DNA of 64,000 nucleotides, taken from NCBI RefSeq assembly GCF_023935105.1, contig NZ_CP096040.1:2108001-2172000 (forward strand), given 5' to 3'. The position numbers and the translations under genes are program-made. The DNA comes from Caulobacter segnis. GTDB taxonomy: Bacteria > Pseudomonadota > Alphaproteobacteria > Caulobacterales > Caulobacteraceae. Shown piece after piece: positions 59,155-64,000 of the stretch (its first letter is position 1; each line of letters begins with the position of its first letter). Below the pieces are notes generated by a model. The model was given only the letters and a program-made list of their open reading frames with translations, was not told the origin of the DNA and searched no databases.

Positions 59155-61275
59155 CTAGGGGCGAGGCTCTGGCGGCGGCGGGGCCTGCGGTACGCCGCTG
59201 TTCGGGGCGGGCGGTTCGGTCGGCGCGGGCGCCGGCGTCAGCGGAGCCACGGGCAGGCCGTCGGGGCCGATCTCGCCTTCCAGCGGCAGGCCCAGGTCGT
59301 CCAGCGGATCCTCCTCGATCACCGGGGCGACCTGGCGGTTCAGGGCGGCCAGCATGAAGGCCTTCCAGATCTTGGCGGGTTCGCCGCCGCCGACCACGCC
59401 GTTCATCGAGCTGTTGTCGTCGTTGCCGACCCAGACGCCCACCACCAGGTCGTCAACGTAACCGACGAACAGGGCGTCGTGATAGTCCTGGGTAGTGCCG
59501 GTCTTGCCGTAAGCGCCCTGAATGGCCGCCTCCAGGCCCGTGCCGCGATGGGTGGCCGAGCGCAGCAGGTCGCGCATGCCGGCCAGGACCTTGGGGTCGT
59601 AGGCGGTGGTCTTGGGCTTCTGGAAGCTGTCCAGAGCGTGCGGCGTGATCGGGTATTCCCCGGCCGCGATCGAGGCGTAGGCCGCCGTCAGGCGGGTCAG
59701 GCTCATCGAGCCGGTGCCCAGCGCCATGGTCAGGTCGTCGGGGATCTTCTCGGTGACGCCCAGCTGACGGGCGACCTTGATCACCTTGGCGGGCCCCAGG
59801 TCGTGGGCCAGGCGCACGGCCGCTACGTTCGACGAGGCGGCGAAGGCGCTGATCAGCGGGATCTCGCGGTCGCGATACTTGCCCTCGTGGTTCTTGGGCG
59901 TGTAGCCGCTGACCTGCACGGGCGTGTCGAGGATCGGGCTGGTGGTGGTCATGCCCGACTGCAGGGCCGCCAGATAGACGAACAGCTTGAACGACGACCC
60001 CGGCTGGCGTTCGCCGTCGGCGCGGTTGAACTGGCTGGTCTTGTAGTCGCGGCCGCCGACCATGGCGACGACGCTGCCGTCCTTGCGCATGGCCACCAGG
60101 GCGCCCTGGGTGATGTTCAGGACCTTGCCGTCGCGTTCGATGAAGTCGTTGAGGATCCGCTCGGCCTTTTCCTGCATCTCGGGATCCAGCGTCGTCTTGA
60201 CGATGGTCTCGCCGTAACGGGCCCCGATGGAGGCGCGGGCCTGGGGCAGGGCCCAGTCGGCGAAGTACGAGCCGGTGGGCAGCTTGTCGGGATTTTCGAT
60301 CGCCGAGACGTCGCCGACGGCGTCGGCCTGGGCCTGGGTGATGGTCTTGGTCTCGACCATGGCGCCCAGCACCACGCGCATGCGCTCGCGGGCGCCGTCG
60401 ATGTTGCTGGTCGGGGCCAGGCGCGAGGGCGCCTTGACCAGACCGGCCAGCATGGCGGCCTCGCCGATCGACAGCTGTTCGGGCTGCTTGCCGAAATAGT
60501 GCCGGGCCGCGGCGCGCAGGCCGAAGGCGCCGTCGCCGAAATAGACCGACGACAGGTAGCGCGACAGGATCTCGGTCTTGGTCAGCCGGGCTTCCAGATA
60601 GACCGCGATCATCGCCTCCTGCGCCTTGCGGCGCAGATTGCGGTCGCTGCTGAGGAAGGCGTTCTTGGCCAGCTGTTGGGTGATGGTGGAGCCACCTTCC
60701 GAGACGCCGCCGGCCTGGGCGTTCTTGCCCAGAGCCCGGGCGATCGCCTTGGGGTCGACGCCCATGTGGCTGTAGAAGCGGCGGTCCTCGATCGCGACGA
60801 AGGCGCCGGGCACATAGGCCGGCAGCTTGGCCACATCGATCGGGGCCTCCTTGTACGAGCCCCGGCGGGCGATCGGGGAGCCGTCGTTGGCGACCAGCAC
60901 GATGGCCGAGTTGTTCAGCGGCTCCAGGGCGCGGCTCAGCGGCAACGACCAGAAGAGCGAGGCGAAGGCGACGATCACCAGCACCACGGCGACGGCGGCG
61001 CCGATCAGCCAGGCCGGCCGCTTCCAGATCGGCGGCTTTTTCGGCCGCTCGGGCTCGGCCGGCGAGAGGGCGGCTTCCGGGACGGTCTCGACGGCCTCGG
61101 GCAGGTCGGTCTCGGCGGGTTCGGGCGGGGCGTCTTCCGGCAGGGTCTCGGGTTCCGGCGTCGTTTCCGGCAGGCCGGCGGCGTCCGTCATCGCCGCCCT
61201 GGCGCGCGGCTTGCGAGGCTTGGGTTCCGCCGGTGTTTCTGGGGCGGTGTCTTTCGGATCGTTGGGATCGGACAT
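59155..61275 (-). CDS. Class A penicillin-binding protein (PBP1A/1C-like)
   Basis: The 706-residue protein has an acidic, Pro/Glu-rich cytoplasmic tail to about residue 100 and one transmembrane helix. A GT51 transglycosylase domain follows (AIEDRRFYSHMGVDP with catalytic Glu, then GGSTITQQLAKN). The transpeptidase domain has PGSSFKLF (SxxK), SSN and KTGTT motifs, and the C-terminal tail is Pro-rich. It polymerises and crosslinks peptidoglycan. ATG 61275 was chosen; an upstream in-frame ATG at 61407 would extend the tail by 44 residues and lacks a ribosome binding site. Confidence 0.92.
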   Translation of the reverse strand: MSDPNDPKDTAPETPAEPKPRKPRARAAMTDAAGLPETTPEPETLPEDAPPEPAETDLPEAVETVPEAALSPAEPERPKKPPIWKRPAWLIGAAVAVVLVIVAFASLFWSLPLSRALEPLNNSAIVLVANDGSPIARRGSYKEAPIDVAKLPAYVPGAFVAIEDRRFYSHMGVDPKAIARALGKNAQAGGVSEGGSTITQQLAKNAFLSSDRNLRRKAQEAMIAVYLEARLTKTEILSRYLSSVYFGDGAFGLRAAARHYFGKQPEQLSIGEAAMLAGLVKAPSRLAPTSNIDGARERMRVVLGAMVETKTITQAQADAVGDVSAIENPDKLPTGSYFADWALPQARASIGARYGETIVKTTLDPEMQEKAERILNDFIERDGKVLNITQGALVAMRKDGSVVAMVGGRDYKTSQFNRADGERQPGSSFKLFVYLAALQSGMTTTSPILDTPVQVSGYTPKNHEGKYRDREIPLISAFAASSNVAAVRLAHDLGPAKVIKVARQLGVTEKIPDDLTMALGTGSMSLTRLTAAYASIAAGEYPITPHALDSFQKPKTTAYDPKVLAGMRDLLRSATHRGTGLEAAIQGAYGKTGTTQDYHDALFVGYVDDLVVGVWVGNDDNSSMNGVVGGGEPAKIWKAFMLAALNRQVAPVIEEDPLDDLGLPLEGEIGPDGLPVAPLTPAPAPTEPPAPNSGVPQAPPPPEPRP

Positions 61276-61414
61276 GAAACTCGGCGCTCGCTTCGGGCGC
61301 ACGCCCTCAACCGTCGTCGGGCTCATACCACAGGCCCGGAGCAAGCCAAGCGCGCCAAAAGGGAAGTTTTTCTCGCCGGACCCCTTGAACGCGATTTGTA
61401 CGATCATAGATAGC

Positions 61415-61503
61415 CCGTCGTGAGGCCGGATGGCCTCTGCCCTTCCTGGGCGTTTCCTCCCTAACTTCTCGAGCCCGGACGGTTTCGCCCGGGCTTTCTT
61501 TTT
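61415..61503 (+). ncRNA. Candidate small RNA with CU-rich loop and intrinsic terminator
   Basis: On the plus strand, GAGGCC/GGCCTC (61422-61427/61432-61437) and GCCC/GGGC (61439-61442/61448-61451) form two hairpins. An unpaired GTTTCCTCCCTAACTTCTC carrying an anti-Shine-Dalgarno-like CCTCCC (61456-61461) follows. A terminator AGCCCGG/CCGGGCT (61472-61478/61489-61495) then leads into TTTCTTTTT. The flanking genes run on the minus strand, so this terminator has no plus-strand gene to serve. TTGAAC at 61385-61390 could be a -35 box; the -10 is weak. The 5' end is a guess. Confidence 0.45.
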
Positions 61504-61509
61504 GCGCGT

Positions 61510-61920
61510 CTACTCGGCCGCGACCGAGACGCCGCCGAAACGCTGGGCGCGGGCGGCGCTTGAGCGCAGGTCCGAGAAGCTCTGGGCGACCAGGGGATAG
61601 TCGACGGGCAGGCCCCACTTGGCGCGGTATTGGTCGTCGGTGAGGCCCAGTTGGTTCAGGTGCCGGCGCAGCGAGCGATAGCGGCGGCCGTTCTCGAAGC
61701 TGATGATGGCGTCGGGCGTGACGCTGGCGGCGATCTCGGCGGCCGTCGGCGCGGAGACCGGCGTCGGCGTGGCGGCCGGGCCCGCGAAAACCGCCTCTAG
61801 CGCGGCGTAGGTGCGAGCGGCGAGGGCGGGCAGGTCATCGGACGAGACCGTGTTGTTGCTGAGATAGGCGCTCAAAACCTGGGCGGCGATCTCGGCGGCG
61901 CGTTCCTGAGCCTTGTTCAT
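61510..61920 (-). CDS. MucR/Ros-family regulator with degenerate zinc finger
   Basis: The 136-residue protein follows the MucR layout: helical N-terminus (AAEIAAQVLSAYLSNN), Ala/Pro linker, then VTPDAIISFENGRRYRSLRRHLNQLGLTDDQYRAKWGLPVDYPLVA. The zinc ligands of Ros (C-x2-C...H...H) are largely missing: Ser74 and Asn77 stand where cysteines are expected. His87 remains, but the second His is not evident. Zinc-less MucR-like proteins that still bind DNA are known, so it is probably a functional DNA-binding protein, though not proved. Confidence 0.88.
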   Translation of the reverse strand: MNKAQERAAEIAAQVLSAYLSNNTVSSDDLPALAARTYAALEAVFAGPAATPTPVSAPTAAEIAASVTPDAIISFENGRRYRSLRRHLNQLGLTDDQYRAKWGLPVDYPLVAQSFSDLRSSAARAQRFGGVSVAAE

Positions 61921-61998: not shown

Positions 61999-63549
61999 TC
62001 AGTGCGCGCCGGCGGCTCGGAGGCGATCGCCGAAGGCGCAGGACGGGGGCAGCTCGACCTCGACCCCGGCCCTGGCCTTGCCCTTCAGCCAATCGCTGAG
62101 CGCCTCGGCGACGGTGTGGTCCAGGCTGGTCAGGCCGCGGGTGTCCAGGGTCACGCGACCGTTGTTCGGCGCGCTGTCCAGGACCTTGGCGATCTTGGGC
62201 AGCTGGACGAACGTGGCCGCGCCTTCCAGGCGGATCTCGCTCTCGTCGGGGCCCAGCTCGCGCTGGAACACGTTGAGGCGCATCTTCTTGAGGTTGGGGA
62301 CCAGCTCCAGCAGCGTCAGGGCCATGCCGACCAGCACGCCGGTCAGAAGGTCCGTGGCCACCACCATCACGAAGGTCGCGCCCCAGATCAGGGCGGGGAG
62401 CAGACCGTAGCGGGCGAACAGGTGACGCACGTGCTGCAGGCTGACCAGCTTCCAGCCCGTGACGACCAGGACGCCGGCCAGGGCCGCGCTGGGCACCATG
62501 CGCAGCAGCCAGGGCAGCAGGGCCACGAAGCCCAGGATCCAGACGCCATGCAGGATCGCCGACATGCGGCTCATGGCGCCGGCCTGGACGTTGGCCGAGC
62601 TGCGCACGATCACGCCGGTCATCGGCAGGGCGCCGACCAGGCCGCACAGCATGTTGCCGACGCCCTGGGCGCCAAGCTCCTTGTTGTACTTGGTGCGCTC
62701 GCCGTCATGCATGCGGTCGACGGCGGCCGCCGACAGCAGGGTCTCGGCCGAGGCGATGAAGGCCACCGCGATGGCGGTCACCAGCAGCATCGGATCCGAC
62801 ATCCGCGCGAAGTCGGCGACACCGGGGATGGCGATGGCGGCGGTGATCGATTCCGGCACCACGATCTTCTTGACGTCCAGCGCCAGGACGGTGGCCAAGA
62901 CGGTGCCGGCGACAACCCCCAAGAGCGCCCCGGGGACCAGTTTCAAGGCCTTGGGACGGAACTTCTCCCACAGCAGGATCGAGCCGATCGTGACCACGCC
63001 GACGGCCAGGGCGGCCTCGACCTGGGTGAGGGTCGCGAACTGCACGCCAGCCAGGGCGCCGGGGATGGCGGCCAGGTTCTGAAGGCCGTGGGCCTTGGGC
63101 GAGTCACCGAACAGGACGTGGAACTGGCCCGCCACGATCAGCACGCCGATGCCGGCCAGCATGCCGTGCACGACGGCCGGCGAGATGGCGCGGAACCAGT
63201 TGCCCAGCTTGGCGGCGCCGGCGATCAGTTGGATCAGGCCGGCGACGACCAGGATCGGGCCCAGCATGGACAGGCCGTGCTTGGCGACGATCTCGAAGAC
63301 GATGACCGCCAGGCCGGCGGCGGGGCCGCTGACCTGCAGGGGCGAACCGGCCAGGGCGCCGACGATGACGCCGCCGATGATGCCGGTGACCAGGCCGCGT
63401 TCGGCCGGCACGCCGGAGGCGACGGCGATGCCCATGCAGAGGGGCATCGCCACGAGGAAGACGACGATCGAGGCGATGAAGTCGCGCGGCAGGATCGTCG
63501 AGAACCCCGGCTTTTCGCCGGGGGCGGTGGAAGCGGCGGCCTGGGTCAT
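61999..63549 (-). CDS. SulP-family anion transporter, probable bicarbonate
   Basis: This 516-residue membrane protein has 10-14 predicted helices. The SulP signature region is VVFLVAMPLCMGIAVASGVPAERGLVTGIIGG, and it has ALPMTGVIVRSSANVQAGAMSRM. It ends in a C-terminal STAS domain (about residues 420-516). Its start overlaps the stop of a beta-carbonic anhydrase gene by 4 bp. This pairing is common for SulP members that move bicarbonate, so carbon supply for carboxylases such as PEPC is a reasonable role; sulfate transport is the alternative. Confidence 0.9.
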   Translation of the reverse strand: MTQAAASTAPGEKPGFSTILPRDFIASIVVFLVAMPLCMGIAVASGVPAERGLVTGIIGGVIVGALAGSPLQVSGPAAGLAVIVFEIVAKHGLSMLGPILVVAGLIQLIAGAAKLGNWFRAISPAVVHGMLAGIGVLIVAGQFHVLFGDSPKAHGLQNLAAIPGALAGVQFATLTQVEAALAVGVVTIGSILLWEKFRPKALKLVPGALLGVVAGTVLATVLALDVKKIVVPESITAAIAIPGVADFARMSDPMLLVTAIAVAFIASAETLLSAAAVDRMHDGERTKYNKELGAQGVGNMLCGLVGALPMTGVIVRSSANVQAGAMSRMSAILHGVWILGFVALLPWLLRMVPSAALAGVLVVTGWKLVSLQHVRHLFARYGLLPALIWGATFVMVVATDLLTGVLVGMALTLLELVPNLKKMRLNVFQRELGPDESEIRLEGAATFVQLPKIAKVLDSAPNNGRVTLDTRGLTSLDHTVAEALSDWLKGKARAGVEVELPPSCAFGDRLRAAGAH

Positions 63550-64000
63550 TCGGCGGCGATGCCCAGGTGATCGGCGGCGACCATGCGGCGGGCCGGACGC
63601 TGGGCGACCGGCAGCGGCGCGCCTTCGTAGACCTGCTCGAACTGGCCGGTGTCGCCGTTATAGGCCTGGATCTGGCCGGTCTCGATCTCGAAGAACCAGC
63701 CGTGCAGGGTCAGTTCGCCCCGGGCCATGGCCGACGCCACCGACGGGTGGGTGCGCAGATGATTGATCTGGACCACCACGTTTTCCAGCGACAGGGCGCG
63801 GGTGCGGCCGTGGTCGTCGAGGTGTCCGTAGCACGAGCACACCACGCTGTGGGCGGCGTGGGCGTGGCGCAGCCAGGCGGCGACGTTGGGCATCTTCTCC
63901 AGCGCCTCGGGATGCGAGAAGGCCTTCATGGCCCCGCAGTCCGAGTGGCCGCAGACGACGATGTCGCGCACGCCCAGCGCCATCACTGCGTACTCCACGG
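63546..64000 (-). CDS. Beta-carbonic anhydrase, partial (N-terminus cut)
   Basis: The visible 150 residues include the zinc-site HxxC in VVCGHSDCGAMKAF and the family patterns VVVQINHLRTHPSV and LHGWFFEIETGQIQAYN. The first zinc Cys and the dimer start lie beyond the window edge at 64000. It interconverts CO2 and bicarbonate. Its stop overlaps the start of the SulP transporter gene, so both are made together. The true start is not in view. Confidence 0.9.
   Translation of the reverse strand, partial: VEYAVMALGVRDIVVCGHSDCGAMKAFSHPEALEKMPNVAAWLRHAHAAHSVVCSCYGHLDDHGRTRALSLENVVVQINHLRTHPSVASAMARGELTLHGWFFEIETGQIQAYNGDTGQFEQVYEGAPLPVAQRPARRMVAADHLGIAAE

Follow-up and report, generated by a model that had tools for sequence, protein, structure and literature searches.

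A predicted αR8/MmgR small RNA gene, divergent from a penicillin-binding protein gene in Caulobacter segnis, with exact complementarity to CrfA

What does a plus-strand terminator serve when it lies between two genes that both run on the minus strand? This question is raised by a locus near one end of a 64,000-nucleotide stretch of the Caulobacter segnis genome (NZ_CP096040.1, positions 2,108,001 to 2,172,000; hereafter the window, in whose numbering positions are given unless a contig is named). An earlier note, made from the letters of the window alone, had proposed a regulatory small RNA (sRNA) with an anti-Shine-Dalgarno CCUCCC motif, a proposal that fits both the Rfam sRNA-family match and the promoter-like elements conserved among 20 orthologues described below. 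The two neighbours that it had named, mucR-like and penicillin-binding protein (PBP) genes, both on the minus strand, are borne out by Pfam, with the difference that the PBP gene is a constant companion and mucR a variable one, present in 5 of 20 loci:

59155..61275, minus strand: bifunctional penicillin-binding protein gene, the divergent neighbour (Pfam PF00912, PF00905)
61510..61920, minus strand: MucR/Ros-family regulator gene, convergent (PF05443)

A search of the whole window against Rfam placed a match to RF00519 (suhB/MmgR, αR8) at 61432-61510(+), with 58.1 bits against a gathering score of 41, an E value of 2.3e-9 (for the full window against every Rfam family), and an alignment that spans the full model, 1-77. 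At Rfam gathering scores, this is the sole match in the whole window; at relaxed thresholds, up to E 1, three further sRNA families appear at the same site, all below their own cut-offs. Besides the score at the site, the hairpins, seed, and terminator are conserved among the 20 orthologues. The window RNA is a further αR8/MmgR member in Caulobacter, that is, a well-supported sRNA gene of a kind already known, and it is very probably an Hfq-dependent, trans-acting sRNA (αR8/MmgR, Rfam suhB), a sibling of SisA-D with its own promoter, divergent from the PBP gene. Its parts are as follows:

61420..61503, plus strand: predicted sRNA transcript of about 84 nt, αR8/MmgR, Sis sibling (RF00519 match and GTGAG start; both ends predicted)
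61422..61437, plus strand: hairpin 1, GAGGCC-GGAU-GGCCUC (direct reading and fold)
61439..61451, plus strand: hairpin 2, GCCC-UUCCU-GGGC, the family's 5' helix (fold; Rfam consensus helix)
61453-61471, plus strand: open CU-rich stretch holding CCTCCC (direct reading; unpaired in the fold)
61453..61462, plus strand: seed UUUCCUCCCU, anti-Shine-Dalgarno core, equal to the published αR8 10-mer
61471..61503, plus strand: Rho-independent terminator with U-rich tail (stem AGCCCGG...CCGGGCT at 61472-61495, T-rich to 61503)

The structural reading in the earlier note holds throughout: its two hairpins can be read directly from the DNA (GAGGCC-GGAT-GGCCTC at 61422-61437 and GCCC-TTCCT-GGGC at 61439-61451), its single-stranded CCTCCC stretch (61453-61471) is open in a fold begun at 61418, and its plus-strand terminator has a stem at 61472-61495 followed by T-rich sequence to 61503. 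Folding of 61418-61503 gave exactly three hairpins with the CU-rich stretch unpaired, at -36.7 kcal/mol (z -3.08, with 2 of 200 shuffles as stable); when the terminator was left off (61418-61475), the two 5' hairpins showed no unusual stability (z -1.22, matched by 24 of 200 shuffles). When the fold was begun 38 nt further upstream, at 61380, a different best structure was obtained in which the seed is not unpaired, because upstream bases pair with the terminator; the three-hairpin anatomy therefore requires a start near 61418-61420. The arrangement expected of αR8, a single-stranded 10-nt core UUUCCUCCCU following a weak hairpin, is found in the fold from 61418, and the closing Rho-independent terminator is indicated by sequence, fold, and conservation, termination as such being predicted. 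A simple terminator scan did not list the terminator at 61471-61503, probably because the loop limit of that scan is 8 bases.

Upstream of the RNA, three short elements stand out:

61363..61371, plus strand: conserved A/T-rich element GAAGTTTTT, at about -57 to -49 (0.86 mean pairwise identity)
61385..61390, plus strand: -35-like TTGAAC of the predicted promoter (CTTGAA in 20 of 20 orthologues)
61405..61412, plus strand: -10-like CATAGATA, 14 nt after the -35 (CATA in 19 of 20 orthologues, the exception being G126)

The elements and spacing of TTGAAC-N14-CATAGATA agree with the housekeeping promoter consensus of Caulobacter; a simple scan of the region listed no sigma-70-type promoter. Conservation among the 20 orthologues is concentrated in blocks, with mean pairwise identities of 0.91 for CTTGAAC, 0.78 for the -10-like block (0.43 for the spacer), 0.79 for hairpin 1, 0.88 for hairpin 2, 0.96 for the seed, 0.82 for the terminator segment 61472-61496, and 0.88 for the U-rich tail, against only 0.40-0.53 for spacers and flanks at the locus. 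The GTGAG at the proposed start is kept in all 20. The outer five pairs of hairpin 1 form in every orthologue, with one outer pair changed on both sides in G156 (G-C to A-U), and its innermost pair is unformed in 8 of the 20; all four pairs of hairpin 2 are invariant, as are nine of the ten seed columns (the last one varies), and the seven terminator pairs examined are kept throughout. Blocks of this kind are what one would expect to see if the RNA is transcribed from a promoter of its own. The 20 orthologues give a weak covariation signal, most pairs being invariant: two pairs show two-sided change, a count reached by 33 of 500 shuffles, and the covariation score of the RNA is reached by 40 of 500. 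The A/T-rich GAAGTTTTT, with five of nine columns invariant between adjoining segments of 0.42-0.47 identity, may serve as an UP element, be bound by a regulator, or belong to the promoter of the PBP gene.

The orthologues themselves were defined through the PBP. A search of 75 genomes of the genus returned 20 loci (window included) at 80-100% identity, followed by a group at 72% or less. An RF00519 match of 42.4-60.9 bits lies beside the PBP start in 20 of 20 loci of the first group and in none of the 10 best loci of the next. The PBP start was taken as the ATG at 61275, from whose first residue 10 of the 20 orthologue loci align, and in these 10 the PBP lies 153-157 nt from the RNA model; a start at 61407, inside the predicted sRNA promoter, would give the longest PBP frame. 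On the other side, mucR adjoins the RNA in 5 of 20 loci, window included. Ten of 13 MucR loci were scanned with Rfam (L065, L067-L071, L073-L076), and the RNA was found only in L065; of the three outside that scan, two (L066 and L077) have the exact 10-mer next to mucR, and L072 lacks it. The loci L065, L066, and L077 overlap G192, G171, and G174 and are not independent of the 20 orthologues. In the window, the mucR stop codon starts at 61510, six bases past the U-rich tail of the sRNA, in convergent orientation (61495-61512), so that transcription running past the end of mucR would yield RNA antisense to the sRNA wherever mucR is present here, in 5 of 20 loci. Elsewhere in the window, a SulP-family sulfate permease gene adjoins a carbonic anhydrase gene on the minus strand (61999-63998).

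This layout raises the alternative that the RNA is mainly a local regulator, affecting the divergent PBP gene or acting as antisense to the 3' end of the convergent mucR transcript. The linkage to PBP in all 20 loci speaks for it, as does the mucR stop at 61510 facing the sRNA end at 61503, which makes read-through complementary to the sRNA; in addition, the calculated duplex energy with the mucR leader is equalled by only 15 of 300 shuffled sRNAs, a weak point, as the calculation ignores internal structure. However, a search of the 20 loci found no mucR next to the RNA in 15, pairing with the PBP leader is unremarkable (88 of 300 shuffles do as well, with the same weakness), and the exact 10-mer is common to three other copies of the RNA in the genome and the 14-nt stretch complementary to CrfA to all four. 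We therefore regard mainly local action as quite improbable. Less probable again is that the element is a mere terminator or a decaying family copy, no longer transcribed: siblings could be redundant, but the promoter-like elements and the proposed start are conserved among orthologues, nine of ten seed columns are invariant, and 58.1 bits lies well over the cut-off, as part of the 42.4-60.9 bits in the 20 orthologues. Least probable of all is membership of the αr15/AbcR family: CCNA_R0014, R0133, R0143, and R0157 of C. crescentus have been called αr15 homologues (PMC6561178), but R0133, R0143, and R0157 (SisB-D) are placed in αR8 (PMC12559287), RF00519 is the sole match over its gathering score, and no AbcR/αr15-named family occurs among the Rfam matches up to E 1, including the three sub-cut-off ones, although Rfam 15 may hold no such model.

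The trans-acting αR8 reading draws its functional content from C. crescentus, in which the αR8 RNAs SisA-D were recovered with Hfq and share a 10-mer, through which SisA represses mRNAs; carbon starvation induces the RNA CrfA, which pairs with the 10-mer and inactivates the Sis siblings, and SisA is lost upon CrfA induction (PMC12559287). Enrichment with Hfq is reported for R0157, R0014, R0143, and R0133 (Table 1 of PMC11005374), and gel shifts with Hfq for R157 and R133 (PMC6561178). SisB, SisC, and SisD are R0133, R0143, and R0157, respectively (PMC12559287), and taking PMC12559287 and PMC11005374 together, R0014 is SisA. Expression, Hfq binding, targets, and CrfA control of the window copy would, by homology, resemble those of SisA-D. 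The sRNA would then be transcribed from its own promoter, divergent from the PBP gene; by base-pairing to purine-rich Shine-Dalgarno regions, its seed UUUCCUCCCU would repress numerous mRNAs at the level of translation; the terminator and U-rich tail would keep it bound to Hfq; and on carbon exhaustion, a G/A-rich stem-loop of CrfA would anneal to the seed and adjoining flank, whereupon the sRNA would be lost.

The CrfA step of this scheme can be followed in the genome itself. A CrfA gene (RF01527, 160 bits) is present at C1:5328786-5328921(-), and an exact-match search identified its counterpart in the window RNA:

61448..61461, plus strand: GGGCGUUUCCUCCC, a 14-nt stretch exactly complementary to CrfA stem-loop 2

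In the window copy, seed and flank thus match CrfA stem-loop 2 as an exact complement over 14 nt, and all five αR8 copies of the genome have a common 14-nt match to CrfA. The published footprint of CrfA on SisA is G33-C45, while the protected stretch of CrfA is G49-C63 and the replaced residues are G49-G54 (PMC12559287). From the conserved sequence, we take the SisA footprint to be GGCGUUUCCUCCC; its 13-mer complement, GGGAGGAAACGCC, has exactly six genome sites, namely the five αR8 copies and CrfA. With two mismatches or fewer allowed, the CrfA-site 13-mer occurs at 156 places versus 119 for the backward control, so only exact 13-mer matches are telling. The complement within CrfA, GGGGAGGAAACGCCC, starts at model position 49, with a predicted loop at 49-54, in agreement with the published G49-C63 and G49-G54 provided that the Rfam model begins at the published start. 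Nine of the 20 orthologue genomes were compared for both RNAs, and in all nine the exact αR8-CrfA match is 14-15 nt long; CrfA is detected at E 0.001 in 134 of the 149 genomes sampled from the bacterial family (over the cut-off in 121). The match is thus exactly preserved wherever examined; for the window copy, pairing with CrfA is possible and preserved, and control by CrfA in the cell is what homology would predict.

The genome (one contig, 5,687,505 bases, 5.69 Mb) carries five RF00519 copies over the cut-off, four of which contain the exact 10-mer UUUCCUCCCU; the fifth, the lowest-scoring of them, at C1:4043941, differs in the last seed base. SisA lies next to an N-formylglutamate amidohydrolase (FGase) gene, and FGase matches occur here at C1:763101, 1330023, and 3509031, away from the window copy at 2169432, which is not SisA. 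The copy at C1:759694 is probably the SisA orthologue, because an FGase gene lies 3.3 kb away. Since C. crescentus has four reported copies and this genome five, one or more must be additional in this genome or have been lost from C. crescentus. Of the 149 genomes sampled from the bacterial family, 144 have RF00519 over its cut-off; in a class-wide search 44 of 96 genomes do, a count obtained with stricter filters in which many of the misses are small genomes. It is lower than suggested by the statement that αR8 is present in all Alphaproteobacteria except Rickettsiales (PMC12559287). In the out-of-class control genome Thermus composti, the RF00519 match falls below the cut-off. Copy number is higher in some genomes, with nine RF00519 matches at E 0.001 in G029 and seven in G251, not all of them over the cut-off, and with three matches within 600 bases of one contig in G233.

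Comparison with described systems places the window RNA within this family while setting some features apart. Like SisA-D of C. crescentus, it has the 10-mer UUUCCUCCCU after a weak hairpin and before a terminator, it is one of several dispersed copies, and its CrfA complement has the same numbering, whereas four copies are reported there (PMC12559287) and five occur here. MmgR of Sinorhizobium meliloti, which gives RF00519 its newer name, belongs to the same Rfam family and has the same 10-mer, but it is the sole copy in that organism, where it affects PHB storage, and the window RNA is one of five (PMC12559287). The suhB motif, as described in 2005 by Corbino et al., shares the short 5' helix, the unstructured conserved sequence, and the terminator, and was proposed to be an sRNA with its own promoter; four copies were counted in C. 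crescentus, without any characteristic gene neighbours (PMC1273637). The present copy differs in its linkage to a PBP gene across the sampled genomes that have a close PBP. The consulted portions of PMC2245857 and PMC3927594 add nothing further on the αR8 family. CrfA (RF01527) is itself not an αR8 member and is the predicted antagonist, or sponge, of the window RNA.

As regards targets, the exact seed complement AGGGAGGAAA has five genome sites, of which four are αR8 copies read backwards and one lies before a sulfatase open reading frame; the backward-pattern control gave two matches. This last site, Shine-Dalgarno-like and an exact seed complement, is at C1:2320807-2320816 (L131 1501-1517), 6 nt before the ATG, which makes the sulfatase frame a candidate target of the sRNA. 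Free duplex energies, calculated for CrfA and for the PBP, mucR, SulP, and sulfatase leaders, were dropped as uninformative, because they ignore internal structure and shuffled RNAs were as good or nearly so: the sRNA reached -68.9 against CrfA, with a shuffled mean of -57.5 and a best shuffle of -80.3, and shuffled sRNAs did as well in 36 of 300 cases for the sulfatase leader and in 132 of 300 for the SulP leader.

A further lead concerns the upstream regions of the siblings. Just upstream of the copy at C1:1798708 lies an operator-like palindrome, TGTTAGCGCTACCA (C1:1798674-1798687; L001 1467-1480), which probably resembles the Caulobacter xylose-regulon operator. With two mismatches or fewer, it occurs in 23 of 70 distinct αR8 upstream strings (from loci L001-L064 and L108-L127), whereas 200 shuffled patterns averaged 0.01 and never exceeded 1; the palindrome was noticed first and counted afterwards, and because the genomes that supplied the strings are related, the 23 occurrences are not independent of one another. 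The carriers do not include the window copy. Genome-wide, seven sites occur with at most one mismatch (one for the backward control). Besides the site at the C1:1798708 copy, there are six, which have as neighbours an arabinofuranosidase-type gene with an esterase, a LacI-family regulator with an FAA-hydrolase-fold gene, a GH3 glycosidase, an aldehyde dehydrogenase, a TonB-dependent receptor, and a GH35/42-type gene. On this pattern, the C1:1798708 copy may be controlled by xylose or pentose. Upstream of the C1:4043941 copy (L005), there is a perfect 14-bp palindrome, TGACAACGTTGTCA, presumably LacI-operator-like from its look. A narrow literature search found no report of LacI-controlled sibling sRNAs, and the conserved sugar-operator-like site upstream of a sibling αR8 copy may be new. 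A tentative picture, to which we give slightly less than even weight, is that the αR8 siblings form a multi-input hub with one seed and one sponge, CrfA, but each copy under a different sensor, such that xylose or a related sugar would switch the mRNA-silencing C1:1798708 copy directly and the conserved promoter-like region of the window copy would add another input.

That the family was already known, with five copies and the sponge CrfA in this genome, leads beyond what the earlier note had seen. The additions made here to an established family are the anatomy of this member, its PBP-linked orthologous group, the presence of CrfA with exact complementarity, and the lead on sibling-specific sugar control. 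A formerly unexplained terminator can now be given as a named regulator whose partner, CrfA, is open to testing beyond the model strain, and an αR8 copy is seen to accompany a cell-wall gene in 20 sampled genomes. If true, the sibling-specific operator-like sites would help explain why several near-identical sRNAs are retained.
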